A stretch of DNA of 22,033 bases. It comes from a virus. Numbering within the stretch: position 1 is the first letter of the stretch; the number at the start of each line of letters is the position of its first letter. The position numbers and the translations under genes are program-made. The notes beneath the pieces are model-generated. The model was not told the DNA's origin. It saw nothing but the letters and a program-made list of their open reading frames with translations, and ran no database searches. Below are positions 1,091-19,717 of this stretch, one piece after another. The DNA lies in IMG/VR virus record IMGVR_UViG_3300028581_001470, positions 1 to 22,033 of that record. One strand, written 5' to 3'.

Positions 1091-1597
1091 TTACAGATCA
1101 CGACCTTGTGGGTCTTCTGTAAGTAATTGCTTTTTGCTCTTTGTTGTTTTTACTTCTGCCTCGGAATCTTTAACTTCAATTTTCTTTGGCTTCTTGTGCT
1201 CAGGAATAATACGCTCCAGGAAAACCTTTAGCATACCATTCATCATAGCAGCATCTTTTACTTCGACAGTATCTTCTAACGCAAAAGATCTTGTGAATGC
1301 GCGATTCGCAATTCCTTTAAATAGGAACGCATCTTCGGCTTCGTCATTCTGTACATTGCCTTTGATAATCATCTTACTATCGGCTAATTCAATTTCGATA
1401 TCCTGTTTAGCAAAACCAGCAACAGCCATTTCGATAACGTAAGTGTTATCGCCTGTTTTCTTGATATTGTATGGAGGATAGTTTGGGATTGCTTTCGTCA
1501 GATCATCATGGATCTTTGAAAGGCGATTGAATTGATCATCGAATCCTACAAAAAATTTGTCGAAATCTTTAGGTAGGTTATTTAAAAAATATGTCAT
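1091..1597 (-). CDS. hsp20: Hsp20-family small heat-shock chaperone
   Basis: This 168-residue protein is an IbpA-like small heat-shock protein, an ATP-independent holdase that binds unfolding proteins in the cytoplasm. The alpha-crystallin domain runs from about 40 to 133. It starts at YPPYNI (40-45), includes EMAVAGFAKQDIEIEL and GIANRAFTRSFAL, and has the NGML turn at 120-123. A KKIEV tail (138-142) matches the C-terminal IxI/V oligomer-contact motif. After it comes a charged lysine-rich extension. The start has AAGGAG seven bases upstream. Such genes are common in marine T4-like phages, where a role in scaffold or capsid assembly has been suggested. It has its own leader of 117 bases, separate from regA. 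Confidence 0.95.
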   Translation of the reverse strand: MTYFLNNLPKDFDKFFVGFDDQFNRLSKIHDDLTKAIPNYPPYNIKKTGDNTYVIEMAVAGFAKQDIEIELADSKMIIKGNVQNDEAEDAFLFKGIANRAFTRSFALEDTVEVKDAAMMNGMLKVFLERIIPEHKKPKKIEVKDSEAEVKTTKSKKQLLTEDPQGRDL

Positions 1598-1714: not shown

Positions 1715-2149
1715 TTATTTAGTGCTAGTTGTCAATTTTTTCTTGCCAATATTATACTTTGTTTCAAGCATCCACTCATTTTTCTCTTTGTGGGATATAA
1801 CTTTGATTTGGGAAAGCGGAGCATAATCTGTAAAGTAATCTGGATTACTAATTTTAACTAATCCCCAATCCACTAGCAACTTAGCAATGGTGTTTCTTCT
1901 TTGTAAATCGTTATCTGATAGATCAGCGGTCTTTCCATCTAAGGCAAAGAGCTCTTTAAAATGAACTATAAAATAATGACCTTGTTTATGCAGTATATGG
2001 CAAGATTGAAATAGTGTTTTATCTTTTCTAGAAGCCACACCTATCCGTGTTAGAGTTTCTCTTACCTTTAAAAAATCGTCGGGTTCTGTGAGTATTACTT
2101 CTAAGGGTTTATATCCCGGGAAGTCAATACTTATCATGTCAGTACTCAT
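1715..2149 (-). CDS. regA: RegA translational repressor
   Basis: RegA binds AU-rich ribosome-binding sites of early phage mRNAs, including its own and clamp-loader messages in T4, and blocks translation initiation. The core matches T4 RegA closely: EPDDFLKVRETLTRIGV, KDKTLFQSCHIL, YFIVHFKELF and LVDWGLV. About 144 residues against 122 in T4; the extra length is an N-terminal segment of roughly a dozen residues and a basic C-terminal tail. The longest frame begins at a GTG at 2158, but AGGTGG sits five bases before the ATG at 2149, so I chose that one. An ATG at 2137 is closest in position to the T4 start but lies too far from an SD. The chosen start overlaps gp62, as expected for coupled expression. 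Confidence 0.93.
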   Translation of the reverse strand: MSTDMISIDFPGYKPLEVILTEPDDFLKVRETLTRIGVASRKDKTLFQSCHILHKQGHYFIVHFKELFALDGKTADLSDNDLQRRNTIAKLLVDWGLVKISNPDYFTDYAPLSQIKVISHKEKNEWMLETKYNIGKKKLTTSTK

Positions 2150-2582
2150 TCCTACCACCTTTTGTTATTTTTCTTTTCATATCGTCAATAATCTTGTCAT
2201 CTAGAAGCGGGAGTACTTGCTTAGCTTTTTCTGTGCTGTAGCCATAGTATTCTTTTATAACTTCCAAATCATTGATTTTCTCAGCCTTGATCCATTTATT
2301 GAATCTCTTCTTAGGCCTAATAATATTTATAAGAAAGTGAAATTGAAGGATCTTATCCAAATGAGGACGAGAGTTCATTTCATTGGCGGGGATTACTGTA
2401 TCTGGTCCATAGGATAACCCTTTATTAATGATCCAGGGGTTATACTGTTTCTCGGACCAATCGTCGACTATTAAATTTTCCTTACTATGATGTATTGCAT
2501 TGATAAAATCAAAAGGTGAAATCGCAGGAGCCTTATAAGGAACTTCCTCTATTTTTGCTACAGGTTCTCCAAACAAACTCAT
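2139..2582 (-). CDS. 62: Clamp-loader small subunit gp62
   Basis: gp62 joins four gp44 ATPase subunits to form the T4-type clamp loader that opens the gp45 ring and places it on primed DNA. The 147-residue protein (T4 gp62 has 187) has family-like blocks: SPFDFINAIHHSKENLIVDD, LSYGPDTVIPANEMN (56-70), a HLDKILQFHFL helix, IRPKKRFNKWIK, and EYYGYSTEKAKQVL. The position between gp44 and regA is as in T4. It starts in an ATGA overlap with the membrane-protein gene upstream, so it depends on translational coupling. It is shorter than T4 gp62 but full-looking for marine T4-like phages. Confidence 0.9.
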   Translation of the reverse strand: MSLFGEPVAKIEEVPYKAPAISPFDFINAIHHSKENLIVDDWSEKQYNPWIINKGLSYGPDTVIPANEMNSRPHLDKILQFHFLINIIRPKKRFNKWIKAEKINDLEVIKEYYGYSTEKAKQVLPLLDDKIIDDMKRKITKGGRNEY

Positions 2583-2866
2583 AGCACCATCCTAATTAAT
2601 CCAACGGTATCTATTGCAACTAACAATAAGTAGTTAGCCAACATACCAAATGATTTCCTACTATAAGCGCACCAAGCATAGATAGCACAACCACTAATCC
2701 AGATAGGATATAGTATAAGTAAAGGAGGATTGGGAACCGTAAGTGCCATTGTGATAGAACACCCAATAGATATACCCCAAGCAAGACACTCCAACATAAA
2801 CCTATTAGCGTGAGTGCGCCAGTCATCTTTTATCCATTCAAAGGTTGGTTTAATATAATCCATCAT
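2579..2866 (-). CDS. Three-helix membrane protein within the clamp-loader operon
   Basis: The 95-residue protein has a short polar N-terminus (MMDYIKPTFEWIKDDW) and three predicted transmembrane helices at about 24-43, 48-68 and 74-92, with a PNPP turn at 45-48 and a basic YSRKS loop near 68-72. It lies between gp44 and gp62, joined to both by ATGA overlaps, where T4 has no gene. I recall similar small membrane proteins in marine T4-like phages at this place, with no known function. The location suggests production together with the clamp loader, and perhaps tethering of replication to the membrane; that is inference. Confidence 0.75.
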   Translation of the reverse strand: MMDYIKPTFEWIKDDWRTHANRFMLECLAWGISIGCSITMALTVPNPPLLILYPIWISGCAIYAWCAYSRKSFGMLANYLLLVAIDTVGLIRMVL

Positions 2867-3804
2867 TTAAATTCTACTGCTGCCATAATCTCAGTTAGAC
2901 ATGCTACAAGATTAATTTCTTGATCTGCGCAAAATGCTGCCTTATACTGATAATCAGCAAGTAGTAAAATTAACTGCGGTACTTGTTTAACTTGATCTGT
3001 TAACGTATCGTATAACTTTCTAAAGATAGTCCCAGGATCATTGTCAATATTATTTACAACCCACGTACGCATCTTTTTCCAATCCCCATCTTTTAAAGAT
3101 GAGACTAGTTCTTGCATATTGGATTCGCCTAGATTAACAAAGATGCCTTCGTCAATTTTACCTGAGGCTGAGTATCTCTGCAATTCATTTAGAACACGTC
3201 TATAATCGGGGAAGTGTTTTTCGATTACCTTTGCGATTACTTTACCGTCTGCCTCAATCTTTTCGATAGACATAATCTCGGTAACACGCTTGAAGAATGC
3301 TGCCGCAATCTTAGGCTTATCCGCTTTAGGTAATTTAAATTCAATTACTGCAGTACGAGAATGAAGCGGAGGAATGATTCTATTCTTAAAGTTACAAGTA
3401 AGAATAAACCTACAATTAGATGAGAACTCTTCTATAAATGCTCTCAATGCAGGTTGTGTAGAATTAGGATTTAGATAATCTGCCTCGTCTAAAATTACAA
3501 CCTTTGGCTTGCCACTAAATGATACAGTAGATGCAAACTGTTTAATCTTTGTACGAAGAACATCAATACCAGATTCTTCTGATCCGTTAATGATGATATA
3601 ATCTGTTTCCAGTTCTTCACACAATGCTCGGGCAACTGTGGTCTTGCCCATACCAGCACCACCGCATAATAGCATGTTCTGAATCTCACCCTTAGACAAC
3701 ATCTCATGAAAGATGCGCTTTTGATCCGCGGGTAAGATACAGTCTGCGATTGTTCTAGGTCTATAAGCCTCTACCCAAAGAAATTCTCCCTCTTTTCTTT
3801 CCAT
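2863..3804 (-). CDS. 44: Clamp-loader ATPase subunit gp44
   Basis: gp44 is the AAA+ ATPase of the T4-type clamp loader (four copies with one gp62). At 313 residues it is close to T4 gp44 (319). The Walker A motif is CGGAGMGKT (47-55), Walker B is VVILDEAD (102-109), the sensor 1 region is FILTCN (133-138), and an SR (149-150) corresponds to the SRC arginine finger, with threonine in place of the cysteine. The N-terminal LWVEAYRPRTIADCI segment is typical of clamp-loader large subunits. AGAAGGTGAG lies upstream of the ATG. The stop forms an ATGA with the next gene. T4 gp44 mRNA is a RegA target, so repression at this start is plausible. Confidence 0.96.
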   Translation of the reverse strand: MERKEGEFLWVEAYRPRTIADCILPADQKRIFHEMLSKGEIQNMLLCGGAGMGKTTVARALCEELETDYIIINGSEESGIDVLRTKIKQFASTVSFSGKPKVVILDEADYLNPNSTQPALRAFIEEFSSNCRFILTCNFKNRIIPPLHSRTAVIEFKLPKADKPKIAAAFFKRVTEIMSIEKIEADGKVIAKVIEKHFPDYRRVLNELQRYSASGKIDEGIFVNLGESNMQELVSSLKDGDWKKMRTWVVNNIDNDPGTIFRKLYDTLTDQVKQVPQLILLLADYQYKAAFCADQEINLVACLTEIMAAVEFK

Positions 3805-4143: not shown

Positions 4144-4800
4144 TTACACCACCGAATCAGGTTCCATTGCGATAAAATATCCCAATGGCTTTGTTGCGTG
4201 TTTAAATTGGAATGCTTTCTTTTTCGAAATTGTAACATTGTACGCATCCGGGACAATCTTAAAATTCTCTACTGCCATATGGCAATCGAAAGAATGCTCG
4301 CTCTTACCAATAATTTTCTTATAGGTATTTGCAGTGTCATTTTTCTTATCACCGATAGTTAATGTAACATTCTCACCTTTACTCGAGATTGTGATTGTAG
4401 GGGCTCCTGTAATAGCCGCCGCTTTCATAATCATATTAACATCTTCTGCTGTCAATTTAAATTCATAGTGTGAATCTATTTCGATTTCCTTAGCAGGTGC
4501 TGCTACAATTACGTTCGGTGCAGAATAAAAGTATTCAAACTTGCCATTGTCTTTCGACATGGTCAAGCTCTTTTCACCAAAATCTACAGTTTGACTTTCC
4601 ATCAGTGTTAGCAAAGCTAACAACGAATTCAAATCATATACTGCAACTTCCTCTGGAAAGTCCTCAGCAACTTCTGCTCTCGCATAAATGTTTTTAGCTG
4701 TGCTAATTGTGGATAATACCTTACCCTTGCGGATTAGAATATTGCTATTAATACTAGCAAAATTCTTCAGGATATCAATTGTCTCTTTACTGATCTGCAT
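4144..4800 (-). CDS. 45: Sliding clamp gp45
   Basis: gp45 forms a trimeric ring that tethers the T4-type polymerase to DNA and also activates late transcription by contacting the gp33/gp55-bearing RNA polymerase. The protein has 218 residues (T4: 228). Its N-terminus, ETIDILKNFASINSNILI (6-23), matches T4 KDTTALLKNFATINSGIML, and VAVYDLNSLLALL matches T4 VAIYDLNGFLGIL. It ends LGYFIAMEPDSVV, like T4 YVVALEADS. AAGGAG lies seven bases before the ATG, the strongest ribosome-binding site in the block, as expected for a protein needed in many copies. The start overlaps the end of the DUF3310-like gene by 14 bases. Confidence 0.96.
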   Translation of the reverse strand: MQISKETIDILKNFASINSNILIRKGKVLSTISTAKNIYARAEVAEDFPEEVAVYDLNSLLALLTLMESQTVDFGEKSLTMSKDNGKFEYFYSAPNVIVAAPAKEIEIDSHYEFKLTAEDVNMIMKAAAITGAPTITISSKGENVTLTIGDKKNDTANTYKKIIGKSEHSFDCHMAVENFKIVPDAYNVTISKKKAFQFKHATKPLGYFIAMEPDSVV

Positions 4801-5086
4801 TATTTAACTCCTTGGTTTCAATGTCATGTACATATAATAACATCATGCTATAGTGTAACACCTTTAGTATGTCTTGTCTATTCCTTCCGGCTTTCTTTCC
4901 GTATCTTTGAACATATTTCATTACGTTTCCTGCGGTAAATCCGACACCGTGACCATTATCAATAATAAATTCAGTTGCCTGAAATTTATTCATCGAATAA
5001 TGTTCGCCGTAAGTGGCATCGATGTATCCTTTAAACTCTTTTATGAGTTCACCTTCATTGTATTTGTAGTTTATTTCTTTCTCCAT
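4787..5086 (-). CDS. DUF3310-like phage protein
   Basis: The 99-residue protein carries the pattern of the short phage DUF3310 family (sometimes labelled nucleotide-kinase-like): HYSMNKFQATEFI (29-41), a glycine-rich NGHGVGFTAGNVMKYVQRYGKK core and a DILKVLHYSMMLL helix. These resemble the family signature HY..QAIEFI and NAIKYI.R..KK. The biochemical activity is not established. AAGGA lies five bases before the ATG. It overlaps gp45 downstream and the GT2 gene upstream (16 bases), so the glycan cluster and the replisome block are translationally continuous at this point. Confidence 0.7.
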   Translation of the reverse strand: MEKEINYKYNEGELIKEFKGYIDATYGEHYSMNKFQATEFIIDNGHGVGFTAGNVMKYVQRYGKKAGRNRQDILKVLHYSMMLLYVHDIETKELNNADQ

Positions 5087-5805
5087 GGGTATCCATCCTT
5101 AAATTTCTTTTCCATCACGCTATTGCCCCATATAAAAAAGTCAGCTTGAACTGAATCTTTTCTATTACCAACTCTATAATTCAACGAATATATTCCGTTG
5201 GTATCATACGTAAATTCATGTTCACGTAATACTTGCATTATCACACGATCTACTTCTGGTTGATCGTCGGGGTGCCTTGCTCTTCGATACCATAAAGGAG
5301 ATATTTGTATTGCGATAGATGTAGGTAAAAAGTATGCGCCTACATCAACAAAGTATTCTTGCGCACCTAAGCATGTAGGCCATTTACCTAAATTCTCACA
5401 ATCATCGAGACAAACATACTTACTATCTTTATCCACAATTTTTCTTAATGAGAATGCCCAATCATTAGTTTCACAAACTTTAACTAGTGTTTCTATATGT
5501 GCAAGATCAATATAATTATCCTCATCTAAAAACATTACATAATCAGAATCAATTAGATATGGAAATGCCCCATATATTCTATGACCATTATATTGACTAT
5601 GTCCGGTATTGTGTGGTAATGTAACTACTGTTGCAGATACTTCTTGTATATCTAACTGTTTAAATGCCTTAGCTTGAAACTCAGGACCATCAATAACAAT
5701 AAGATGCTCTACATTTTCGTATGTCTGTTTTAATACAGAATCCACATTTTGTTTTAGATAATCTGATCCTGTTGTAGGAGTGATTACTGTCACCTTCTTA
5801 CTCAT
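5071..5805 (-). CDS. GT2-family glycosyltransferase
   Basis: The 244-residue protein is a compact GT-A fold transferase. KVTVITPTTGSDYLKQNVDSV at the start is the nucleotide-binding strand-loop-helix of family 2. HLIVIDGP (34-41) follows, and FLDEDN (92-97) holds the metal-binding acidic triad DED at 94-96. The second half (RARHPDDQPEVDRVIM) probably forms the acceptor-binding part. TAAGGA precedes the ATG. It is the last gene of the glycan cluster in transcription order. Donor and acceptor are not predictable from sequence. It has no membrane segment, so it works in the cytoplasm. Confidence 0.85.
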   Translation of the reverse strand: MSKKVTVITPTTGSDYLKQNVDSVLKQTYENVEHLIVIDGPEFQAKAFKQLDIQEVSATVVTLPHNTGHSQYNGHRIYGAFPYLIDSDYVMFLDEDNYIDLAHIETLVKVCETNDWAFSLRKIVDKDSKYVCLDDCENLGKWPTCLGAQEYFVDVGAYFLPTSIAIQISPLWYRRARHPDDQPEVDRVIMQVLREHEFTYDTNGIYSLNYRVGNRKDSVQADFFIWGNSVMEKKFKDGYPWRKK

Positions 5806-5818
5806 TATAAATCCTTAC

Positions 5819-6700
5819 TTATCTATACATCTCACACATTTTTCTATAAGTTTCTCTTAAGCCAGTATCAAGATTATATTTGGGTTCCCAATCTATTAGA
5901 CTTTTCAACAAACTATTATCAGCAACAAATTTCATATGTCCTGTTGCTGCACCATTTAAGACTTCAATTTTTATTTTAGATTCATCTTCTAATATTTTTA
6001 CAATATCACCTACGGAATGGATTTGACCTGCTGCAACATTAACGGGTCCTGTATAGTCAGTATCTAATAATTTAACAATTGCTTCAGATGCATCTTTGGT
6101 GTAGATAAAATCTCTTTGAGGTAATAAATTTAATACCTGGGCTTTCTTCTTAAATACCAATCCTTCAACTAATTGATTAACCAAATCTGGTCTATCCAAA
6201 GCAGTAGATGGTCCATAGATATTAGTTAATCTAACAGTAATATTAGGAACAGAGGAATAAAATTTTGCGACTTCCTCTCCTAAATATTTACTGAAAACAT
6301 AGTTATTTTGATATGGGTTTATTGGTTGATGTTCATGTACAGGCAACACCATTTGACTACGATCATACAATAAAATAGAACTAAAACTAATAAGCTTTTT
6401 AATCGGTCGTTGTTTAAAGTATGTAAATATCTTTGTTAACGGAATCACATTCTTTTCCATGGCTTCAATATGATACGGTTTTTCTGTATTAAGAATAGTA
6501 TGATTAGAATTACCAATCATCATTATAACTTTATCAAAGTCTAATTTATCTAATACTTCAGGTAAGTGATCTACACTTGGACAATCTACATGATGCACTG
6601 CAGTATCGGGGTTTGTTCTACCAACAGAAATAATGTCAGGATATTTTTTTAAAATTTGCGGACCCAAGAACCCGCTTCCACCTAAAATAATTGTGCTCAT
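5819..6700 (-). CDS. NAD-dependent sugar epimerase/dehydratase (extended SDR)
   Basis: The frame extends upstream to 6772, but those codons overlap the previous gene. The ATG at 6700, one base after that gene's stop, puts the Rossmann motif where it belongs, so I use it: 293 residues, MSTIILGGSGFLGP with GGSGFLG at 7-13. The catalytic pair is YVFSK (Y134, K138). SFSSILLYD (105-113) is the serine-bearing strand, and RLTNIYGPSTALDRPDLV resembles UDP-glucose 4-epimerase-like SDRs. LPQRDFIYTKDASEAIV is typical of the substrate-binding part. It lacks the TDE triad of 4,6-dehydratases, so an epimerase or 4-ketoreductase is likelier. It may finish the deoxysugar made by the distal half of the cluster. 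Confidence 0.8.
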   Translation of the reverse strand: MSTIILGGSGFLGPQILKKYPDIISVGRTNPDTAVHHVDCPSVDHLPEVLDKLDFDKVIMMIGNSNHTILNTEKPYHIEAMEKNVIPLTKIFTYFKQRPIKKLISFSSILLYDRSQMVLPVHEHQPINPYQNNYVFSKYLGEEVAKFYSSVPNITVRLTNIYGPSTALDRPDLVNQLVEGLVFKKKAQVLNLLPQRDFIYTKDASEAIVKLLDTDYTGPVNVAAGQIHSVGDIVKILEDESKIKIEVLNGAATGHMKFVADNSLLKSLIDWEPKYNLDTGLRETYRKMCEMYR

Positions 6701-6701
6701 A

Positions 6702-8216
6702 TTATTTACTTTCAAAATATTGTTTGTATGTTCTAGCAATATAAGCCTTGTTGCGTTCGTAAATTTCTCCAATTCTCGAATTAACTGTAGTTTCAGATTT
6801 TGTTCTTGTAGAACCCCAATCTACATCGCTCTTATACTTTAACGCATACACACCATTTTTGTATCCCTGCATATTCATTCTAATACTCATATCATGGCAA
6901 TCGAAACCACACGGAGCAAGATCCATATTATAAAAGCCTACCTCAACATATCTCTTCCATTGTATGCAAGTTGGGCTACGAATAACTATTTCTGTTATTA
7001 CGAACTCGTTATACTTAACTTCTGTATACGGAGGTGCACTTGCCCCCATGCTTTTCCAATGACCAAACTCAGATTCAAAGAAATTATACTCGCTAATGCT
7101 TGACCCCGAAGAATGTAAATTACAACCTAGTCTACAACTAATATAACCTAGATCAGTATATGCTTCAAAAAGATTTTTAAAGATTAAATCTATATTATCC
7201 TCTTTAAGTATAACGTCATCTTGTACTGTAAAAATTAAATCCTCAGGATTAGGATGACACTTATCTCTAATATATTCAAGACCAGTATTTAAAGATGTAA
7301 TCTCATGTACATCATTTTGATATAATAATGTTACATTATTTTCTAAAGAGTTTTCTGCAATATATTTTTTTAGAATTGCTTCTGTTCCATCTGTGCAACC
7401 ATCTATAATAAAAATTATTTCATATGGCATCTGCTCACTTACAGATTTGTGTATTCCACCAATAACTTCTCCTATTAAATTTTCTTTATTATATACGGGT
7501 ATTATAAAATATGCTTTCATATTGCTCATTATTCCTTTATCAAACTTTACAGATTCTGATAAGTTCTTTTGATCGAACCTATTTAATTCTTCCATGGATG
7601 CAGGATATAGAGGCATATCAAATTCATCATATCCATTACCACAAAAAGAATATTTATTCTTTAATTTTAATCTTGTTTCTCCAAACCATCCTTCTTTCAT
7701 GCTATGGATCATAGTATCGGATTTCACATAGGGAAAAATATAATCTCTTAGATACACTTGATCGTTAGTATAATAATTAGTATTATACATAAACTTACTC
7801 ATTATATCCTTAAGGTCTTCGGGTAATTTTCCCTTCAATCCAAATGCACACGCAATAATAGGAAACTCGTAATGTGCTTCATGATCTCTAAATATATGAA
7901 ATGAATTATTAGACTCTAACCATTCCTGAACTGCCATCTGTTCTCGTAATGTTATTCTTCCATCGGCATCTCGAACAATTACAATATTGTCCTCAGATTC
8001 AAATAGAGGTAAAAATCTCCAGAATACTCCATGACTATTATCTTTAATCTCTATAATTTCCGCATCGGGCATTGCCTTATTATATTTGCTTTTGTCGTCG
8101 GTGTAAATACGAAAAGTCCAATTAGGATAAAATTCCTTAGTTAATTCGTATTGTCTTATTGCACCATTTATATACCGCGGGTTGCTTCCCCATTCAGATG
8201 TCGAAACTATTTTCAT
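6702..8216 (-). CDS. Fused two-domain glycosyltransferase
   Basis: This 504-residue protein joins two different transferase-like domains. Residues 1 to about 225 look like a GT-A-type domain: MKIVSTSEWGSNPRY start, FRIYTDDKSKY, and a metal-binding VRDADGR at 81-87, followed by a FHIFRDHEAHYEFPI region. Residues 233-504 form a classical GT2 domain: AYFIIPVYNKENL, IIDGCTDGT (270-278) and VQDDV (331-335), then a conserved C-terminal acceptor region with CGFDCHDMS. An AAAGGA and an in-frame ATG lie at the junction, which suggests that two once-separate genes were joined, or that the second domain can also be made alone. The start has no clear Shine-Dalgarno and follows the previous stop by three bases. 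Sugar specificity is unknown. Confidence 0.8.
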   Translation of the reverse strand: MKIVSTSEWGSNPRYINGAIRQYELTKEFYPNWTFRIYTDDKSKYNKAMPDAEIIEIKDNSHGVFWRFLPLFESEDNIVIVRDADGRITLREQMAVQEWLESNNSFHIFRDHEAHYEFPIIACAFGLKGKLPEDLKDIMSKFMYNTNYYTNDQVYLRDYIFPYVKSDTMIHSMKEGWFGETRLKLKNKYSFCGNGYDEFDMPLYPASMEELNRFDQKNLSESVKFDKGIMSNMKAYFIIPVYNKENLIGEVIGGIHKSVSEQMPYEIIFIIDGCTDGTEAILKKYIAENSLENNVTLLYQNDVHEITSLNTGLEYIRDKCHPNPEDLIFTVQDDVILKEDNIDLIFKNLFEAYTDLGYISCRLGCNLHSSGSSISEYNFFESEFGHWKSMGASAPPYTEVKYNEFVITEIVIRSPTCIQWKRYVEVGFYNMDLAPCGFDCHDMSIRMNMQGYKNGVYALKYKSDVDWGSTRTKSETTVNSRIGEIYERNKAYIARTYKQYFESK

Positions 8217-8219
8217 ATT

Positions 8220-9164
8220 TTACCAAACAAAATTTTCTTTATGCCATTCTACAATTTCTTTTAGCCCTGTATCAAAATCTGCTCTGCAAGACCAACCTAA
8301 ATTTCGTAACTTACTATCACCTATAGCATATCGTACATCTTGACCTTGGCGCTTTTCTGAAAAATCCATATACTTATCATAATCTACAGTATGATCAAAG
8401 TAATTATCTATAATTTTTCTTGCAATAACTATATTCTTTTCCTCATAATTTCCTGAGATATTAAAGATCTCATTCTTAATATTCATTAACACAAGTACAA
8501 AGACTGCGTTTGCTGTATCCGAAACATGGAGCCATGTTCTAACAGGATTGCCGTTATCGTGCATTACAATTGGTTTACCTAAAGATAAATTCTTGCAGGC
8601 TTTTGGAATAAATTTCTCTACATATTGCCCTATGCCATAATTGTTTGTTGGTCTAACAATTATGTAAGGAATATCATATGTTCTTGCCCAAGCAATAACT
8701 AACATATCTGCGGCAGCTTTAGTTGCAGAATATGGATTGCTTGGTTTTAATAAATCTATTTCAGTGTGAAAACCAGAAACCAAGTCACCGTATACTTCAT
8801 CTGTACTAAAGTGTAGGAATGTTGGTCTTATTGATTTTGGTTTTTGTTTGATGAGTTCTAATATCTTATGAACTCCGTTGATGTTGCTACGCAGAAAAAC
8901 ATCTGAGCTGACAATACTATTGTCTACATGAGTTTCCGCGGCAGTATTAATAAAATAGTCACAATCGACCAAGCGGTCGATATCGTTTATATCGCATCCG
9001 TCAAATGTAAAATTTTTATATTCTAGTAATTCATAAAGAAAATCTTTATTACTAGCATACGTTTTACTATCTATACCATAAACATAGTGACCTTCATCTA
9101 GGAACTTTTTAGTTACATGGTAACCTATAAACCCTAAACATCCTGTAACATAAAGTATCTTCAT
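8220..9164 (-). CDS. RmlB-like nucleotide-sugar 4,6-dehydratase (probably dTDP-glucose)
   Basis: The 314-residue extended SDR has TGCLGFIG (7-14) for NAD binding and the full 4,6-dehydratase signature: STDEVYGD (120-127, with the catalytic T-D-E) and YSATK (Y145, K149). NTAAETHVDNS and RPTNNYGIGQYVEKFIPKA match dTDP-glucose 4,6-dehydratase (RmlB). It converts NDP-glucose to NDP-4-keto-6-deoxyglucose, the usual entry to many deoxysugars. RmlB proteins are usually near 350 residues, so this is slightly short but has all key residues. The nucleotide carrier (dTDP, UDP or other) is inferred. It starts in an ATGA overlap with the previous gene. Confidence 0.87.
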   Translation of the reverse strand: MKILYVTGCLGFIGYHVTKKFLDEGHYVYGIDSKTYASNKDFLYELLEYKNFTFDGCDINDIDRLVDCDYFINTAAETHVDNSIVSSDVFLRSNINGVHKILELIKQKPKSIRPTFLHFSTDEVYGDLVSGFHTEIDLLKPSNPYSATKAAADMLVIAWARTYDIPYIIVRPTNNYGIGQYVEKFIPKACKNLSLGKPIVMHDNGNPVRTWLHVSDTANAVFVLVLMNIKNEIFNISGNYEEKNIVIARKIIDNYFDHTVDYDKYMDFSEKRQGQDVRYAIGDSKLRNLGWSCRADFDTGLKEIVEWHKENFVW

Positions 9165-9928
9165 TGCATATATTCTTTCAGTCCGTGCATAATACCATAT
9201 AGTTCTAAACCTTGACTTTGCATTATATCAAGAGTAGATGATTCTCCAGTATAAGAATTATTACTTGTAGATTCAACTATAACTTCTTTATCTATATTAT
9301 TTATGTCGCAGAATAATCTCAAAAATTCACTTAGTGTTCTTTTCTTATAGTATACACAATTCATACTTCTATATGTATTGTTAGTTAATACATATCTTAT
9401 AATTCTATAAAAATCACTTATAGAAATGTAATCAAATTCTCTATCATCCTTTAAAATAAAAGGCCCATCTGTTGCTAAGAATCTTTTCAACAATCTACTA
9501 TCTCTTTCATGCGAACCAAAGCATCCATATAATCTAAGATTAGTAAATTTATTATAATCCAAATCTTTAGTAATCATTCTTTTAGATACAGCATATGCAC
9601 TATTGTTATTATTATCTGCTTCTACTCCAGACCCGATATTAATATATTTTCCGAATAGATCAGAATTACATTTAAAGTTATAATACATTGCTAAATTTTT
9701 AGCAACTATGCCGGGATCTCTACTAGTAATATCTTGATTACCTCCGTATGATATGCAATTTATAACAAAATCTGGTTGGGATTGTTCCAACATATTTCTT
9801 ACGGCATCCGCATCAGTTACATCTATGCCGGGTTTAATTATAGACATTACTATATTATCAGCTGTTAATTTTTCTGCTAGGTATGAACCTATAAATCCAC
9901 CTGCACCTAAAATAAGTATTTTCTTCAT
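9161..9928 (-). CDS. NAD-dependent epimerase/reductase (short extended SDR)
   Basis: The 255-residue protein has LGAGGFIGS at 7-15 (Rossmann loop), INCISYGGNQD in the position of the family's N-A-A motif, and YAVSK (Y112, K116) as catalytic pair. The C-terminal half is shorter than in RmlB or Fcl, and the TDE triad is absent, so a reductase or epimerase on a 4-keto sugar is the likely activity. RLYGCFG follows the catalytic helix as in GDP-fucose-synthase-like proteins. Base use is strikingly AT-rich (14 G/C in the 60 bases from 9541). It is linked by ATGA overlaps to the methyltransferase before it and the RmlB-like gene after it. Confidence 0.78.
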   Translation of the reverse strand: MKKILILGAGGFIGSYLAEKLTADNIVMSIIKPGIDVTDADAVRNMLEQSQPDFVINCISYGGNQDITSRDPGIVAKNLAMYYNFKCNSDLFGKYINIGSGVEADNNNNSAYAVSKRMITKDLDYNKFTNLRLYGCFGSHERDSRLLKRFLATDGPFILKDDREFDYISISDFYRIIRYVLTNNTYRSMNCVYYKKRTLSEFLRLFCDINNIDKEVIVESTSNNSYTGESSTLDIMQSQGLELYGIMHGLKEYMQ

Positions 9929-10722
9929 ATATCTTTTTCTAGTTTAGTTAATACGCATAGATTATTTTTATGAGCAGGGATGCCTAAGTCAAATCCATAT
10001 TCAAAAACATCTATAATTTTAAATCCATTTCTTTTCAACAATGCCGATATAGATTCAATATTGAAAAAATTAATATGTTCATGAAAAGTTCCAATATAAG
10101 CATTCGGGTTATTTGGGACTTCGATATAAATCCATGAATCTTTATCAATATATTGTTTTATATCATTTAATATATCATCGGGATTCGGCTTGTGTTCTAA
10201 CACATGACAACACATTAAAAAATCAAAAGTTTTAATTGTACCATCATATTTTAACACGCCATCCACCGCGGGAACATTGCTAATATCATATACATATTTT
10301 TGTGCATGGGCAAAATATTCGGGTATCATTGAGCCGGTGTCACCGCCATAATCTAATACAGTACCAATATTGCCTATATCAATTTGACGTTCAATTAATG
10401 TAGTGATACCAATTTTTCTATTGTCATAATAAGATTGATCTTCAATAAATTCTGCATTCATTTGGTATGAAGGCTCACATATATTTCGTACTCTGTTATA
10501 CTCATCGCCTCGATAATTTGCATATAGGTTTGTTTCTTCGATAGCAGTGAATCTATCCACGGATCCTACAAACGAACAAGCGGGACATTGTAATCCTTGA
10601 ACAGTAATATCTGCGTCCACGGGTGTGTCTAATGCTCGCCAGGCTACAAATCTTGCTAATCTAGCCGGTTGTATGATTATATCAGAATTATGGCAAGCGG
10701 GACAATGGTTAATTTGATACAT
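9925..10722 (-). CDS. Class I SAM-dependent methyltransferase with N-terminal zinc ribbon
   Basis: The 265-residue protein begins with two CPAC knuckles (C7, C10, C46, C49), a likely structural zinc site. A class I methyltransferase domain follows: VLDYGGDTGS (122-131) is motif I for SAM, and CHVLEHKPNP (172-181) is the catalytic-face HVLEH loop. A four-cysteine domain before the SAM fold is seen in sugar C-methyltransferases such as NovU and TylC3, so C-methylation of a keto-sugar is one reading. O- or N-methylation of a finished glycan is another. Start and stop are three bases from and four bases into its neighbours. No Shine-Dalgarno is obvious. Confidence 0.8.
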   Translation of the reverse strand: MYQINHCPACHNSDIIIQPARLARFVAWRALDTPVDADITVQGLQCPACSFVGSVDRFTAIEETNLYANYRGDEYNRVRNICEPSYQMNAEFIEDQSYYDNRKIGITTLIERQIDIGNIGTVLDYGGDTGSMIPEYFAHAQKYVYDISNVPAVDGVLKYDGTIKTFDFLMCCHVLEHKPNPDDILNDIKQYIDKDSWIYIEVPNNPNAYIGTFHEHINFFNIESISALLKRNGFKIIDVFEYGFDLGIPAHKNNLCVLTKLEKDI

Positions 10723-10725
10723 GTA

Positions 10726-12525
10726 TTATAGGTCTTTGATTAAGGGTATTAGCATTTCTGCTTCAAGTTCTTCTTCGCTCAAAAACGGATAAAGATCTTC
10801 TAACGGTCCACTATATGCGGTACCGTCTGGTCGAACTTTTACTGCACTCTTTGGAATTAATTCTTGAAATTCCTTCATAGCAAATTCAGCAACTAGTGGT
10901 CCCGTATGTGACAACACATCTTGTATCCATTGATCCAGATTTCTAGCAGTTTTTATTCTTGTAAATTCAAACCCAAATGCTTGACTCACCAATTCAAAGT
11001 CTGGGAAGGTAACACCCGAATTGCGACCACATGCGCTGGCCTCGCCATTGCTTTTGTATAGTGCATTATGTGTATGCTTAATTGTTAAGTATCCGTTATT
11101 ATTGATTATGAATATCTTAATATCCAATCCTAGGTTTTTCATTGTTTGTAATTCTTGCAAATTCATCATCAAACTGCCTTCACCTACAATCAATACTACT
11201 GGCCGGTTGGGATAACCTAATTTTGCTCCAATAGCACCAGGCAATCCAAAACCCATCTCGCCTAGGCCCGTGCTGGTCATTATTCGCTGACCTTCTTTGA
11301 GTTTAATTCCAGCATGGGTGCAAGTTAAACTCGTGCCCATGTCAGTTACAATCACATGATCTTTTTCTAAGTATTTGCTTAGTTGTTCAATAAACCAATA
11401 ACTATTAATTCCTTCTTCATCCAAATCAAACGGCGGAGTAGCCATTGGATATTTTGTTTGCCAGCGTTTATATATTTGTTTCCATTCATCAAATTGCGTA
11501 TGGTCAACTGTTGTTTTATTTAACTCGGTAGACATGGCATCTATAAAGTCTGATACATTACCTAGCACAGGAATATCAATATCAAATTTAAATTTTGCTA
11601 ATTCAACTGGATCTATTTCTACAATAACTTTTTTAGCTGCTCTTGCAAAATATTGATCATTAAACCCACGTTGCGGTAATGCAACTCTGGTGCCAAGTGT
11701 AATTAGTAAATCGCAATTTTGCAAAGCTAGATTACCAAAACGCTGGCCATATGTGCCTGCACGACCAACAAACAAAGGATGATCATCGGGAACTAGATCT
11801 GCTGCTTGCCAAGTTACTAATGCAGGAACTCCTAATGTTTCTAATAGTTTGCGAAACGTTTGTTCTGCACCGCTTAATCGAATACCGTGCCCGACCCATA
11901 GTAAAGGTCGTTTAGCATTTTTAATTAACTCAATGGTTGCGGCTGCCTGCTCAGTCATATCAATATTTGCTGGATGCGGCGGAACAAACCCATTTAATTT
12001 TTCAGGATCTACTTGCGCCCATTGAATATCCTGAGGTATATCTATCCAAACTGGCCCAGGGCGACCACTATATGCTTCATAAAATGCCTTTTCCAAAACA
12101 TAGCGTATGTCGTTTGGATTGGTTAACATTGTACTATATTTTGTGAGAGTTTTAGTTACATTAACCATGTCTAACCCCTGCACACCTTTGCCTCGCATTT
12201 GATTAGGTGGGTTTACGTATTCTGAATTTTCTTGCCCAGCAAACACAAATAATGGTAAACTATCTAGATGGGCATCTGCCAATGCTATAATTGTGTTAGT
12301 TGCCCCCGGACCACCTGTTACCATCATCACCGCGGGTTTATTACTACTACGCATATATGTCAACGATGCCATGATACCCGCTTGTTCTATATGTGGGCAT
12401 ACATAATTAATACCAGCATCACTGATACTTTGAATTAACCTAATACTACCCGAACCTGTAATTGCAAATACAAGGTCAACCCCTTTATCTTTAAGAAATT
12501 TCGATATATAATCACTAACTTTCAT
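10726..12525 (-). CDS. Acetolactate-synthase-like ThDP-dependent enzyme, candidate sugar acetyl-transferring enzyme (YerE-like)
   Basis: The 599-residue protein has the three-part AHAS fold. The N-terminal PYR domain carries the cofactor-activating glutamate E47 in PHIEQAG, then GGPGATNTI (71-79). A central domain (about 190-335) and a C-terminal PP domain with GFGLPGAIGA (425-434) follow. The diphosphate/metal motif reads GEG (448-450)...NNN (475-477) instead of the usual GDG...NN. AAAGGA precedes the ATG. No small regulatory subunit and no other branched-chain amino-acid gene is nearby, so isoleucine/valine synthesis is unlikely. It follows an E1/RfbH-like dehydratase whose product is the known acceptor for YerE, the ThDP enzyme that adds a two-carbon unit from pyruvate to a keto-sugar. 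Its G+C is visibly higher than its neighbours (27 of 60 bases from 11941). Confidence 0.82.
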   Translation of the reverse strand: MKVSDYISKFLKDKGVDLVFAITGSGSIRLIQSISDAGINYVCPHIEQAGIMASLTYMRSSNKPAVMMVTGGPGATNTIIALADAHLDSLPLFVFAGQENSEYVNPPNQMRGKGVQGLDMVNVTKTLTKYSTMLTNPNDIRYVLEKAFYEAYSGRPGPVWIDIPQDIQWAQVDPEKLNGFVPPHPANIDMTEQAAATIELIKNAKRPLLWVGHGIRLSGAEQTFRKLLETLGVPALVTWQAADLVPDDHPLFVGRAGTYGQRFGNLALQNCDLLITLGTRVALPQRGFNDQYFARAAKKVIVEIDPVELAKFKFDIDIPVLGNVSDFIDAMSTELNKTTVDHTQFDEWKQIYKRWQTKYPMATPPFDLDEEGINSYWFIEQLSKYLEKDHVIVTDMGTSLTCTHAGIKLKEGQRIMTSTGLGEMGFGLPGAIGAKLGYPNRPVVLIVGEGSLMMNLQELQTMKNLGLDIKIFIINNNGYLTIKHTHNALYKSNGEASACGRNSGVTFPDFELVSQAFGFEFTRIKTARNLDQWIQDVLSHTGPLVAEFAMKEFQELIPKSAVKVRPDGTAYSGPLEDLYPFLSEEELEAEMLIPLIKDL

Positions 12526-12535
12526 TGTCGTTCCT

Positions 12536-13858
12536 TTATAAATATAGACTCATAAAACCATCAACCTTCGATCCGATATACTCAATTTGTTCTGGAGTTA
12601 TAACAGGGCTTGTTCCATGAAAATAAGTATTTGTCATAACCATTGTTGCCACAGGGAAATTTGCTTTAGCATCTGCAGGATCCATAATATGAGAATATGC
12701 CGGTTGCAACATAATGTTTCCAGCAAAGTATGGTCTTGTTTGAATTAAGTTTTCTTCCAAATAGTCTACAATATCGCTTCTTGTAAAAGGAGAACCTTTA
12801 CGAATAGTTAAAGGAAATGCAAACCAACTAGGATCAGAATATTCTTGTGGTCTAGGTAAGTGGAAATATTCTTCATACTTACTATAGATATCAAACAATA
12901 ATTTATAGTTGCGTCTTCGCAGAAAATGTATCTGATCTAATTTTTCTAATTGAACCAATCCCATTGCGCCTTGCATTTCAATTGGTTTTAAATTATAACC
13001 AATCTCATCATACACATATTTGTGGTCAAATATTTCACCAGGCATTGTTGGGATCCATTCTTGGAATCGTTTACCACAGGTACCACACTTTAGTTTGTTT
13101 GCCTCGGGGCCTACACAATAACAACCTCTACCCCATTCTCTAAATGATCTAGCAATAACCTCTGTCTCATAAGTTTTACATGCTACGAAACCACCCTCAC
13201 CCATTGTCATATGGTGCGCAGGATAAAAAGAACAGGATGACATTTCGCCATATGAGCCTAATGGTTTTCCCTCGTATGTACTACCTAAAGCATCGCAACA
13301 ATCTTCCAATAATATCAGATCATACTTTTTAACTAATTCCATAACCCATTTCATATTAGGAGGATTACCTAATACATGCGCGAATGTAATTACTTTAATA
13401 TTATGTTGCTTAATTAGTTCTTCTGCTTTAGTTAAATCTAAATTAAGTGTATCTAATTCAATATCTAAAAAGATAGGCTCAAAGCCTAGTTGTAATGTAG
13501 GGTTTAGTGTTGTAGGAAAACCTGCGATAGGCATTAGTACTTTAGTACCCTTAGGTAAGTTATAACCTCTTTTAGAAGTTAATGTAGCCATCATAAGTAA
13601 ATTAGAACTTGATCCTGAGTTTGTTAAGATACCATGTTCTTTACCAAACTGCTTAGGAAATTCTTTCTCAAACTTTAATGACTTGTCTCCCATAACTAAC
13701 CAACCATCAAGTAAAGTATCTATAACAGACAAATACTCATGCTCGTCAAAATATGGACCAGCATAATTTACAAAATCCTTGCCGGCAGTCCATGTCTTAT
13801 TTGCTGCCTTGTTCTGGAAATATGCAGCTACTCCGTTAATGATGTCTTGTTTATTCAT
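12536..13858 (-). CDS. RfbH/E1-like 4-keto-6-deoxysugar 3-dehydratase (PMP and iron-sulfur)
   Basis: This 440-residue DegT/AHBA-fold protein has histidine (H215 in FYPAHH) where the aminotransferases have the PLP-binding lysine. That is the hallmark of 3-dehydratases that remove the C3 hydroxyl of 4-keto-6-deoxyhexoses. It also has the cysteines of the E1 enzyme [2Fe-2S] site: C188 (EDCCDALG), C246 and C248 (GRGCYC), then C258 or C261, giving C-X57-C-X1-C and a third spacing longer than in Yersinia E1. Length matches E1 (437). The frame can be read from a TTG at 13867, but the ATG at 13858 forms an ATGA with the previous stop and is preferred. E1 normally needs a reductase partner (E3), which is not in the window. 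Confidence 0.88.
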   Translation of the reverse strand: MNKQDIINGVAAYFQNKAANKTWTAGKDFVNYAGPYFDEHEYLSVIDTLLDGWLVMGDKSLKFEKEFPKQFGKEHGILTNSGSSSNLLMMATLTSKRGYNLPKGTKVLMPIAGFPTTLNPTLQLGFEPIFLDIELDTLNLDLTKAEELIKQHNIKVITFAHVLGNPPNMKWVMELVKKYDLILLEDCCDALGSTYEGKPLGSYGEMSSCSFYPAHHMTMGEGGFVACKTYETEVIARSFREWGRGCYCVGPEANKLKCGTCGKRFQEWIPTMPGEIFDHKYVYDEIGYNLKPIEMQGAMGLVQLEKLDQIHFLRRRNYKLLFDIYSKYEEYFHLPRPQEYSDPSWFAFPLTIRKGSPFTRSDIVDYLEENLIQTRPYFAGNIMLQPAYSHIMDPADAKANFPVATMVMTNTYFHGTSPVITPEQIEYIGSKVDGFMSLYL

Positions 13859-14787
13859 GGTTTCCAATAGGCATAATTGCCTTCCAAATGTTTTACTTGA
13901 TTTCTATTCCTTGCCTCATCTTCTTTAAGAGGATATTTCCAATGTTCGTTGTAGTATTCTGCCCATACTCTATAACCATTATTTGCCTCGGGCGACCAAC
14001 GATATCCTAATATGCCGAAGAATAACTGATGCACACCCCCAGTTTGTATACCTACCTTGCCTCGTTTTTTAGCATGTTCCGCATATAAAGGAGAGGATGT
14101 TGTTACACCCGAAATTAAAACATCATAGTCATACTTATCAATTTCATTTTTTATATATTCTACATTTTGGTCCCACGTCTCGCAACCAGGATATTGTCTG
14201 TCATCGATTAAAGGATGGTATGGTGAACGAATACAACCTACTAAATCAAACGGTGCAACTAAATCTAAATTGTCTCCCCATATTTTATCAATCTGTTGCC
14301 ATTGAGATTTAATAGTTTCACAATGCGTAGATATAACTAATACTTTTTTATTCTTTAAATACTTTGTCCAGGGTGTTTCAACCTTAAATGTTCCACATAA
14401 CCCGCCTCTTAGAACACCGATAGGATCCAAAACCATGAGACTATCATGTCCAAAGAACATAGGCTTTTCGCCGAATGTTTTAGTAAAGTTAGTATCATTT
14501 TGTATGGCTAATGACATATCAACAAATCCTAGTATATCACATTCCTTCATGGATTGTGTTAACATAGGAACAATGGTATCTATATAATAGTCAGTTGTAC
14601 CTGGAGTTATCCCACCCTCAAAAGAAAGAGCAGTATTATTAAAGAATTGTGAGGATATACTAGTGTTGTTAAACAGATTTTGTAGAACATATCCCGCACT
14701 ATTATCTAGACGTAATAATGAGAAAGGTTCATTTGATTGCAATTTTTCTGAAATTAAATCATTAACCTCAAAGAAGTTTTTAAGCAT
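13855..14787 (-). CDS. Putative GT-D-like glycosyltransferase
   Basis: The 310-residue protein has no standard GT-A DXD motif. Its N-terminal FSLLRLDNSAGYVL (22-35) resembles the FSLIRxGDGE strand of DUF1792/GT-D proteins. KKVLVIS (147-153), DVLISGV (222-228) and GGVHQLFFGILGYRW (250-264) match the G.xLP.A...GK.xIHxGGxxQxLFGIKGxRW pattern seen in such proteins of capsule and LPS clusters. The usual DGE triad is not intact (DNS here), so catalytic competence is uncertain. It starts inside the end of the previous gene (8-base overlap) and couples to the E1-like gene by ATGA. Location among sugar genes supports a transferase or surface-glycan role. Confidence 0.55.
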   Translation of the reverse strand: MLKNFFEVNDLISEKLQSNEPFSLLRLDNSAGYVLQNLFNNTSISSQFFNNTALSFEGGITPGTTDYYIDTIVPMLTQSMKECDILGFVDMSLAIQNDTNFTKTFGEKPMFFGHDSLMVLDPIGVLRGGLCGTFKVETPWTKYLKNKKVLVISTHCETIKSQWQQIDKIWGDNLDLVAPFDLVGCIRSPYHPLIDDRQYPGCETWDQNVEYIKNEIDKYDYDVLISGVTTSSPLYAEHAKKRGKVGIQTGGVHQLFFGILGYRWSPEANNGYRVWAEYYNEHWKYPLKEDEARNRNQVKHLEGNYAYWKP

Positions 14788-15490
14788 AATAGTTTAGTAA
14801 TTGATCTTTATCTTGTTTAATATAAGCAAACGCTTCTTTTATGTCATCAGATAATGTTTCATAGAAAGTATACATTTCTTTTTCAGCTTGGTCTTTATTA
14901 TAATTTGTTACTTTAGGATGGTCAATAGTATGAGCATAATCACGAATAACTGGTCTTTGATTCATAAAACTAATCGCAGTATAAATTATATCGAAACTCC
15001 ATCCCATTTTATATGGAGTAAAATCCACATTCTTTTCTTCAGCAATTTCTAAAATATCTTTATGTATAAACCAACAAGTACAATCCGGATTAGATACAAT
15101 CTTCAGATTAGGTTCTTCTAAGTCAAACTGTAAATCTACCTTAGAAGAATCATACCAAGTATAATCCACATTAGGTGCATAAATGCCCCATCCATAGATA
15201 TTAAAATATTTTTCAGCATCTGTATATAACTGTTCCCAATTAGTGTAGGATGCATCGCCCTGAATATGAAATAATACATCACCCTTCAATTCTTTAAACA
15301 ATTCTATTGCCTTCATGAATTGCGCAGTGAAATAACTATCCTCGCCTATGTTATGCCAATCTGAATCATTGTGTTCGTCGTCACTATTAATTACGATAGG
15401 TTCAATCCCTATGCCTTTAAGTTGTTTTACTTTTTCAACTGTCTTTTCATATTGTCCACGCCAATTAAATATAAATGTGATTATTTTCAT
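14780..15490 (-). CDS. Putative GT-A-type glycosyltransferase
   Basis: The 236-residue protein starts MKIITFIFNWRGQYEKTVEKV. FHIQGDASYTNW (74-85) places an acidic residue (D79) where GT-A enzymes bind the metal-nucleotide sugar. GWGIYAPNVDYTWYDSS and NPDCTCWFIHKDIL resemble the acceptor side of capsule-type transferases, and KMGWSFDI supplies a late acidic residue. No membrane helix. The start shares one base with the stop of the GT10 gene (TAATG). Assignment rests on fold-like pattern and context, not on a family signature; sugar unknown. Confidence 0.6.
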   Translation of the reverse strand: MKIITFIFNWRGQYEKTVEKVKQLKGIGIEPIVINSDDEHNDSDWHNIGEDSYFTAQFMKAIELFKELKGDVLFHIQGDASYTNWEQLYTDAEKYFNIYGWGIYAPNVDYTWYDSSKVDLQFDLEEPNLKIVSNPDCTCWFIHKDILEIAEEKNVDFTPYKMGWSFDIIYTAISFMNQRPVIRDYAHTIDHPKVTNYNKDQAEKEMYTFYETLSDDIKEAFAYIKQDKDQLLNYYA

Positions 15491-16365
15491 TATTCTCTCA
15501 TATCTTGTTTGTTATAAACTACAGACTCAAACCAATTTAATAAATTGTTCAAGATCATATAATCCCTAGGAATGCCTGCTGCTAAAGGAGGCGCGGATAT
15601 TACTCTATTATATAGATCCTCATCCGAATCTAATCTCATTACAAAATCAATTACTTCTTCATGGTTATTGAAATCATGAACATTGATGAAGGACTGGATG
15701 TTAAAGTCTGATGCTATTGTAGGACTGCCCCAATAGATAGGAATTGTTCTTGCATAATAAGCGTGGAGAATTTTCTCTGTGGCATAGCCGGGATAAGAAC
15801 CAGACTCAAAGCATATATTAAATTTCCGCTTAGCCAAGAAATTAATCTTAGCAAGTTCTCCATCTAACTTACCACCAATATTATTGTATAAGGATCCCCC
15901 GCTATCTACCTTCTTTACCTTATTCAATTCTGTGAAGAATTCATTACGCTCTTCGCATCCGGGATTGCTAACAACAAAAGAACAGAAATCTGTTTTTAGA
16001 ATGGGATTATGCTCGCCGAGAATATGATAATATCCATGCCCCGTGTTATGAATAGCATCCAATGCCCACATATAAACTACAAACAACGGTAGGCGGAAAT
16101 GCCAATTACTATAGTTATGATCAAACGTAATTGCATAGTGGCAATCATAATTATCTGGTCTTTGATTCTCACCTGTATAGAAAATCTTAACGCAATCCGA
16201 TTTACTAAATTTTTTATTATTTACCCCAAAATTACTATCACCAAAGATCAAATAATCAGGATTTTCGTTATCTATTTCTACATCAAATCTATTTGCTAAT
16301 AGACTATGAAAGAATTGCGATATATGTTCGTGAGTATCAGCAAAACCTAGTTTAATTTTTTTCAT
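15490..16365 (-). CDS. GT10-family fucosyltransferase-like enzyme
   Basis: The 291-residue protein has the GT10 alpha-1,3/4-fucosyltransferase signature: IFYTGENQRPD (61-71), CSFVVSNPGCEERNEF with DSGGSLYN downstream, and the donor-binding block KFNICFESGSYPGYATEKI (181-199) followed by PIYWGSP (209-215) and FINVHDF. GT10 enzymes take GDP-fucose, with inversion, to galactose or GlcNAc of surface glycans. It is a soluble GT-B protein with no signal peptide. Gmd and Fcl homologues, which make GDP-fucose, lie upstream in the same transcript, so donor and transferase fit. If the ColD-like enzyme diverts the pool, a GDP-colitose-type donor is an alternative. Confidence 0.9.
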   Translation of the reverse strand: MKKIKLGFADTHEHISQFFHSLLANRFDVEIDNENPDYLIFGDSNFGVNNKKFSKSDCVKIFYTGENQRPDNYDCHYAITFDHNYSNWHFRLPLFVVYMWALDAIHNTGHGYYHILGEHNPILKTDFCSFVVSNPGCEERNEFFTELNKVKKVDSGGSLYNNIGGKLDGELAKINFLAKRKFNICFESGSYPGYATEKILHAYYARTIPIYWGSPTIASDFNIQSFINVHDFNNHEEVIDFVMRLDSDEDLYNRVISAPPLAAGIPRDYMILNNLLNWFESVVYNKQDMRE

Positions 16366-17273: not shown

Positions 17274-17616
17274 TATCTACGCCCTTATATAATTTGACAG
17301 AATCCTCAATTAAGGATCTATTTTGCTTGATTGCGGTATCAACCATTAGATTGATTGCTTGTACATATCGAGGGCGTTTTACTTTAAAGCAAATATCACA
17401 TTTGCGTTTTAAGTCTGCAATCTCGGCATCTGTTTTTGCTGCTTGAATAGCATCTTCTAACATCCACATACGAATATGAATAATTGCAAGTTTTTCAATT
17501 ACTTCACCTAGGTTATCTGTTTCAACATAGGTAGAATCAGGCAATCCTCCCGTTGTCAATACTCGCTTAACAGTCCTTTCAATAACTGCCTCAATACTAC
17601 TACCTAAATTTGGCAT
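17266..17616 (-). CDS. DUF4254-like protein of surface-polysaccharide clusters
   Basis: The 116-residue, all-helical protein contains NLGEVIEKLAIIHIRMWMLED and IADLKRKCDICFKVKRPRYV followed by INLMVDTAI. That layout (a helix with a W..ED centre, then R/K-rich helix and NLM helix) resembles DUF4254 proteins, which appear in LPS and capsule clusters with unknown activity. GGAG precedes the ATG. It overlaps the ColD-like gene by 17 bases and the next gene by 8. No catalytic residues are evident. Confidence 0.5.
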   Translation of the reverse strand: MPNLGSSIEAVIERTVKRVLTTGGLPDSTYVETDNLGEVIEKLAIIHIRMWMLEDAIQAAKTDAEIADLKRKCDICFKVKRPRYVQAINLMVDTAIKQNRSLIEDSVKLYKGVDNV

Positions 17617-19710: not shown

Positions 19711-19717
19711 ATAAACC

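Follow-up and report, generated by a model that had tools for sequence, protein, structure and literature searches.

If a gene for a small membrane protein is translated between the genes for the two clamp-loader subunits of a T4-like phage, then its product may either have a membrane-linked role in replication, or the replication operon may serve this gene only as a site for its expression. This question is raised by the window, viz. the whole stretch of 22,033 nucleotides analysed here (positions 1 to 22,033 of the IMG/VR virus record IMGVR_UViG_3300028581_001470). An earlier note, made from the letters of this DNA, had claimed that a three-helix protein is coupled by ATGA to gp44 before it and to gp62 after it, at a place where T4 has none. 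Both parts of this claim are borne out: the gene, referred to here as mem, shares ATGA overlaps with both loader genes (Table 1), its product has three hydrophobic segments by hydropathy and three membrane helices in a structure model, and in the T4 annotation genes 44 and 62 are separated by one base with nothing encoded between them. With regard to the question itself, we consider it fairly likely that large phages carry mem as a mobile accessory cassette, whose product is a self-contained inner-membrane protein that does not act via the clamp loader.

The mem gene in the window and the family to which it belongs

Table 1. Position of mem, its two joints and the neighbouring genes in the window.
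Feature	Position	Strand	Basis
mem, predicted 95-aa three-TM membrane protein, ATG start	2579..2866	minus	ORF, hydrophobic segments, model, homologues
ATGA overlap, gp44 stop / mem start	2863..2866	minus	sequence
ATGA overlap, mem stop / gp62 start	2579..2582	minus	sequence
gp44, clamp-loader large subunit (AAA+)	2863..3804	minus	phrog_168, E 9e-118; Gp44_lid
gp62, clamp-loader small subunit	2139..2582	minus	Pfam Phage_clamp_A, E 2e-10; phrog_225, E 2e-40
RegA translational repressor, next operon gene	1715..2158	minus	Pfam Translat_reg, E 3e-45
gp45 sliding clamp, upstream of gp44	4144..4800	minus	phrog_223, E 2e-65
Hsp20-type small heat-shock protein, downstream	1091..1597	minus	phrog_432, E 1.5e-42

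The joints seen in the window recur in other loci. The ATGA shared by the gp44 stop and the mem start is present in 15 of the 16 loci where gp44 lies directly upstream of mem, and the mem stop falls within an ATGA in 20 of the 28 loci where gp62 follows directly. The Hsp20-type gene is also a common neighbour in the loci related to the window. Based on gp44, the nearest isolates are Methylophilales phages (61% identity), one of which was recorded from the Western English Channel. It is clear that mem is a genuine gene rather than a chance ORF, as relatives of it are present in at least 598 IMG/VR stretches (598 of 600 candidates among the matches listed) and the median dN/dS is 0.21 over 525 moderately diverged, non-independent pairs; when a bacterial member was used as the query, 590 of 600 IMG/VR candidate stretches were found to be relatives.

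Despite this abundance, the libraries searched offer neither a name nor a function for the family. No mem homologue was detected by tblastn at E<=1 in a phage collection of 50,697 records, from which close neighbours of the window's record may be missing. The window protein shows no match in PHROG, none in NCBIfam and none above the cut-off in Pfam, where only a sub-threshold YwiC hit was obtained; at the level of the family, phrog_25166 (no function) is matched weakly by 26 of 119 members, with a best E of 0.0068, and NCBIfam gave one marginal hit (E 0.15) among 53 members. The similarity to the YwiC-like profile PF14256 extends to 23 of these 53 members (best E 1.5e-4), but the scores of 18.5 bits for the window protein and 21.2 bits for another member (L118) lie below the curated cut-off of 25, the bacterial members L096 and L088 are without a match, and this assignment was rejected. 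Sequence searches of the PDB yielded nothing at E<=10, PADLOC gave no match in 119 members, and in the portions available of the literature, including PMC2993671, PMC6832632 and PMC13212656, nothing on this protein was recognised. An abundant and strongly conserved viral family of this kind merits a name.

Genomic contexts of mem and the cargo of the gp44-gp62 slot

For the analysis of genomic contexts, the loci used were the best 80 of each scan, so that the counts given below are not population frequencies; ORFs were called by a simple custom script, and the removal of 39 near-identical loci from 153 viral mem loci left 114 non-redundant ones. Each locus was classed by what is encoded no more than four genes away from mem, viz. 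gp44 or gp62, a B-family DNA polymerase, or neither of these. Of these loci from the best 80 per scan, 31/114 showed the gp44/gp62 context, 50/114 the polymerase context and 33/114 neither, some of the latter being cut by a contig edge so that their context is only partly seen. The earlier note had held that homologues in unrelated positions, with no link to replication genes, would refute its claim. This is in part the case, given the 33 loci outside these contexts, whereas in 71 of the 114 loci (again from the best 80 per scan) mem is immediately beside gp44, gp62 or the DNA polymerase. Due to the latter, the link of mem to the expression of replication genes is real, and this degree of adjacency exceeds what an arbitrary expression site would need, which counts against the cassette reading.

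In the polymerase context, the example examined carries a polymerase of phrog_262 (E 1.6e-198) that is closest to the polymerase of Sinorhizobium phage Phosso (51%), and these phages appear to be a different lineage. In eight records of this context with a strong gp44 match (G386, G388, G389, G390, G392, G394, G395 and G397), gp44 is 16-19 kb from mem. The gene upstream of the polymerase matches phrog_12534 (unknown) and the transcriptional regulator phrog_639 (E 3e-13), and we take it to be a putative DsbA-like gene; in Phosso, a hypothetical gene that separates the DsbA-like gene from the polymerase was considered as a mem homologue, but by eye it is unrelated. The contexts elsewhere include a deoxyribonucleotidase (phrog_2643), a DNA-binding protein (phrog_624) and a phrog_385 regulator, as well as genes that on reading of the ORFs are MazG-, PhoH- and metallophosphatase-like. 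In all 20 records searched, which were hand-picked mostly for length, mem is present in a single copy.

The reverse question, viz. what lies between gp44 and gp62 in different phages, was addressed using the best 80 loci from each of three gp44 scans, together with the records of nine isolates. After dropping loci in which no gp62 could be located (6/80 window-like and 25/80 cyanophage-like), 218 loci remained in which both genes were resolved, and hydrophobic segments in the slot proteins were identified by a simple hydropathy rule. Constant retention with the loader genes would be expected of a clamp-loader component, but in 203 of these 218 loci (best 80 per scan) the slot is without mem. 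With the same limit to the best 80 per scan, mem occupies the slot in 15/74 window-like loci, 0/80 of the second set, 0/55 cyanophage-like loci and 0/9 isolates. By the rule of the script, the slot is empty in 14/74 window-like loci, 45/80 of the second set, 3/55 cyanophage-like loci and 0/9 isolates (best 80 per scan). However, the window-like class labelled as soluble only includes 19 loci with gaps of 60-107 bases that hold either no ORF or just one of 30 codons, and these are counted here as empty in addition to the 14 so labelled.

Among 18 gp44-bearing records, hand-picked mostly for length, mem is present in seven. Four T4-type records, two of them (G936 and G937) among these seven, carry it 70-85 kb away from gp44: in G385, G936 and G937 the slot is empty and the distance is 70-80 kb, and in G396 a gap of 510 bases separates gp44 from gp62 and mem is about 83 kb away.

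The presence of accessory cargo in the T4-like replication cluster is an arrangement already known in kind. A 2OG-Fe(II) oxygenase, an HNH endonuclease and a DNA methyltransferase are annotated in the slot of T4-like isolates; they resemble mem in being accessory genes between the loader genes, but unlike it they are soluble, and they are not homologous to it. In 9/9 isolates the first cargo gene overlaps the end of gp44 by 1-4 bases. As mem shows, the gap between gp44 and gp62 is a cargo site, where close phages exchange genes while the loader is kept intact. Small membrane-type proteins other than mem are also found there. One example is the cyanophage protein annotated as 'T4-LIKE GC: 158', which is present in the slot of 4/9 isolates (L194:4077-4349, L195:3723-3902, L196:3436-3624 and L193:3451-3765), and a small one-segment protein occupies the slot in 39 of the 55 resolved cyanophage-like IMG/VR loci (best 80 in the scan). 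The likeness of this protein to mem is one of place and type; it has one hydrophobic segment by eye, not three, and no relationship was found by profile. It is matched by 143 phage records, including cyanophages with records of 47 kb. Other slot genes with a hydrophobic segment were found in 7/74 window-like loci and 1/80 of the second set (best 80 per scan).

Divergence of mem relative to the flanking genes

If mem were a partner of the clamp loader, then its divergence should follow that of gp44 and gp62. This was examined by means of protein distances in 37 thinned loci (of 40) that carry gp44, gp62, regA and mem. The distances of the three core genes are closely correlated (Pearson 0.91-0.94; 0.94 for gp44 and gp62), whereas for mem, whose distances saturate near 75% identity so that any correlation involving them is lowered, the values are 0.05 with gp44 (Spearman 0.03; 326/1000 shuffles as high), 0.08 with gp62 (Spearman -0.02; 517/1000) and 0.18 with regA (Spearman 0.08; 134/1000). 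For the 43 unthinned loci, r is 0.95 for gp44 and gp62, 0.09 for gp44 and mem (131/2000 shuffles as high) and 0.12 for gp62 and mem (96/2000). A partnership with the clamp loader was rejected on this basis. However, mem does follow the polymerase in part, with r of 0.55 and 0/1000 shuffles as high over 49 polymerase-context loci, although in the 34 of these loci with a neighbouring clamp the value for polymerase and mem is 0.58 vs 0.93 for polymerase and clamp. This partial following, together with the unthinned value for gp62 and mem, counts against the cassette reading.

The same pattern is seen in close pairs of loci. Between the window and L197, the identities are 94% for gp44, 86% for gp62 and 69% for mem, and between the window and L199 they are 89%, 82% and 47%, respectively. 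The divergent mem allele of L199, which lies in the slot as in the window, retains much of the conserved core, and the family thus reaches beyond the loci sampled in our scans. In a tree of mem (129 rows with few columns, in which many forks are poorly resolved and the bootstrap has not settled), the well-supported branches require at least five changes of the context label for gp44/gp62 and at least six for the polymerase. The patchy distribution of mem and its mobility relative to the flanking core genes are those of phage accessory (moron-type) genes.

Of the two possibilities raised by the earlier note, use of the operon for expression is the one better supported, and a loader-linked role in replication is made less likely by the lack of co-divergence, the absence of mem from most slots, its location 70-85 kb from gp44 in four records and its occurrence elsewhere in 33 loci. 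On account of the varied contexts and these same observations, mem is interpreted as a mobile cassette and not as a component of the loader. According to this interpretation, one copy of mem per genome would have been inserted into a replication transcript or into another that is presumably early, be it between gp44 and gp62, immediately 5' of the B-family DNA polymerase, or among genes of nucleotide metabolism and others, and the ATGA joints would permit its translation while leaving the flanking genes undisturbed.

Predicted structure and possible activities of the mem protein

The AlphaFold model of the mem protein, based on an alignment of 119 sequences, has a mean pLDDT of 93.9 (a first model from 53 sequences reached 80) and shows helices at residues 2-18, 20-42, 49-69 and 73-94, from which the protein is predicted to consist of an N-terminal amphipathic helix followed by three membrane helices. 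In 129 phage and bacterial rows, identity amounts to 98.5% or more at 38 of the 95 positions, and the conservation is biased to one face of each helix, as equally extreme values were obtained in 20, 194 and 34 of 5000 shuffles for the three membrane helices and in 68 of 5000 for the N-terminal helix. The conserved faces carry R22, E26, W30, M40, Y53, W56, C60, Y63, N78 and D86, and judging from this pattern we read them as a probable functional pocket or pore of a self-contained protein rather than a loose anchor. However, some near-invariant residues, e.g. W65, F73 and A77, are on the opposite faces, and these count against the cassette and transport explanation.

Relatives of mem are not limited to viruses, as they were found in 16 of 30 candidate stretches of a bacterial collection. 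One of the contigs (L087) is viral-looking on reading of its ORFs, with Hsp20-like and polymerase-like genes. The other carriers are MAGs labelled Methylococcaceae or uncultured proteobacterium, and marine gammaproteobacteria whose genomes measure about 1 Mb. Within the marine small-genome family, mem is present in 10 of 12 sampled genomes, compared with 3/369 genomes sampled from the class and 1/398 from the phylum, and in the family to which the Methylococcaceae MAG L088 belongs it was found in 2/151; the known-positive centre genome is included in each of these counts. In four marine gammaproteobacterial loci (L092, L096, L098 and L101; about 6001-6291), mem stands alone at a common chromosomal place, with an ArsC-like gene (by ORF reading) on the opposite strand just 3' of it. 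No phage replication genes adjoin mem in these four loci, and the neighbourhoods of the six bacterial loci read give no hint of its function. As mem is carried by a bacterial family whose genomes measure about 1 Mb, its function can be tested outside infection.

The tendency of near-invariant residues to share a single face in every helix and the chromosomal retention of mem in a small-genome bacterial family suggest that the protein most likely works on its own in the membrane. In the host membrane it would probably form a small oligomer that functions as a transporter or channel to the benefit of the infected cell. If mem is a cassette of the kind proposed, a transporter or channel is the likeliest activity, although we suggest this tentatively from the sequence pattern, and an exclusion function like that of T4 Imm comes next. 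Neither profiles nor PDB sequences nor folds gave a match that points to a transporter or suggests a substrate. The NMN transporter PnuC (PF04973) was rejected, with 0/53 members matching at E<=1 and an hhalign probability of 0.2% against KVP40 PnuC. Fold searches of the PDB with either model gave no significant hit (best Foldseek E 1.9, with the second model). When the first model was compared with predicted structures of viral proteins, E 0.001 was passed by three, all of them uncharacterised and from uncultured phages. SemiSWEET and the small subunits of complex I resemble mem as three-helix bundles of similar size, with no sequence match. The hit to SemiSWEET 4x5n_A (E 2.9, TM 0.47, rmsd 6.2) is within chance for three-helix bundles. 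Complex I chains recur, e.g. 7vz8_m with Z 8.4 (rmsd 2.7 over 69 residues) and 6x89_4L with Z 8.2 (rmsd 3.0 over 76 residues), and 7d3u_F reaches Z 7.2; these values are within chance for helical bundles, for which the top Z of 8.9, to an unrelated yeast chain, is also usual. We take the matched chains to be small membrane subunits of the NuoK/ND4L type, from complex I and Mrp.

By analogy with T4 Imm, mem could instead be a superinfection-exclusion protein, which would bring about an early change in the inner membrane that bars the DNA of a second phage. According to the T4 annotation, Imm is likewise a small membrane-acting protein encoded in the replication cluster, where its gene lies between genes 42 and 43; the occurrence of mem in bacterial chromosomes would suit a use in defence, and its gain, loss and allele swapping among close relatives fit a conflict between phages. 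However, Imm has 83 aa, compared with the 95 aa, the highly conserved core and the gp44-gp62 place of mem, and no sequence relation between them was found, as the Imm family PF14373 is matched by 0/53 mem members at E<=1 whereas T4 Imm itself, used as a control, matches at 7.4e-16. The absence of PADLOC matches and a conservation so strict as to be unlike that of a protein in an arms race also speak against exclusion, which we regard as unlikely, though worth keeping in view.

If, on the other hand, mem tethered the replisome to the membrane, or were an accessory factor of the clamp loader, and so anchored gp44/gp62 or the polymerase at the inner membrane, then its adjacency to these genes in two gene orders, its partial co-inheritance with the polymerase, and the placing of a different one-segment protein in the cyanophage slot and of hydrophobic-segment genes in eight further slots would be accounted for. 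Such a role is improbable in view of the lack of clear co-divergence with gp44/gp62, the frequent joining of the loader genes without mem, the four T4-type records in which it is remote from gp44, and its retention in a bacterial family where phage replication genes do not adjoin it in the loci read. It is slightly more doubtful still that mem provides the replication factories of phages with a portable membrane module, which would bring the replication machinery or nucleotide supply to the inner membrane and would owe its repeated settling beside replisome genes to this recruitment, with unrelated proteins such as that of the cyanophage slot sharing the role.

Two other observations concern neighbouring DNA. 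In a viral record of 149 kb, mem is followed by a gene for a protein of 683 aa (L024:6332-8383) that matches phrog_35576, of unknown function, and on reading of the ORF resembles CHASE2/adenylate-cyclase proteins. In the window, the replication operon is adjoined by about 15 kb of minus-strand ORFs (positions 5071-20731) that, as read, resemble genes for nucleotide-sugar or glycan synthesis, among them putative epimerases, aminotransferases and glycosyltransferases.
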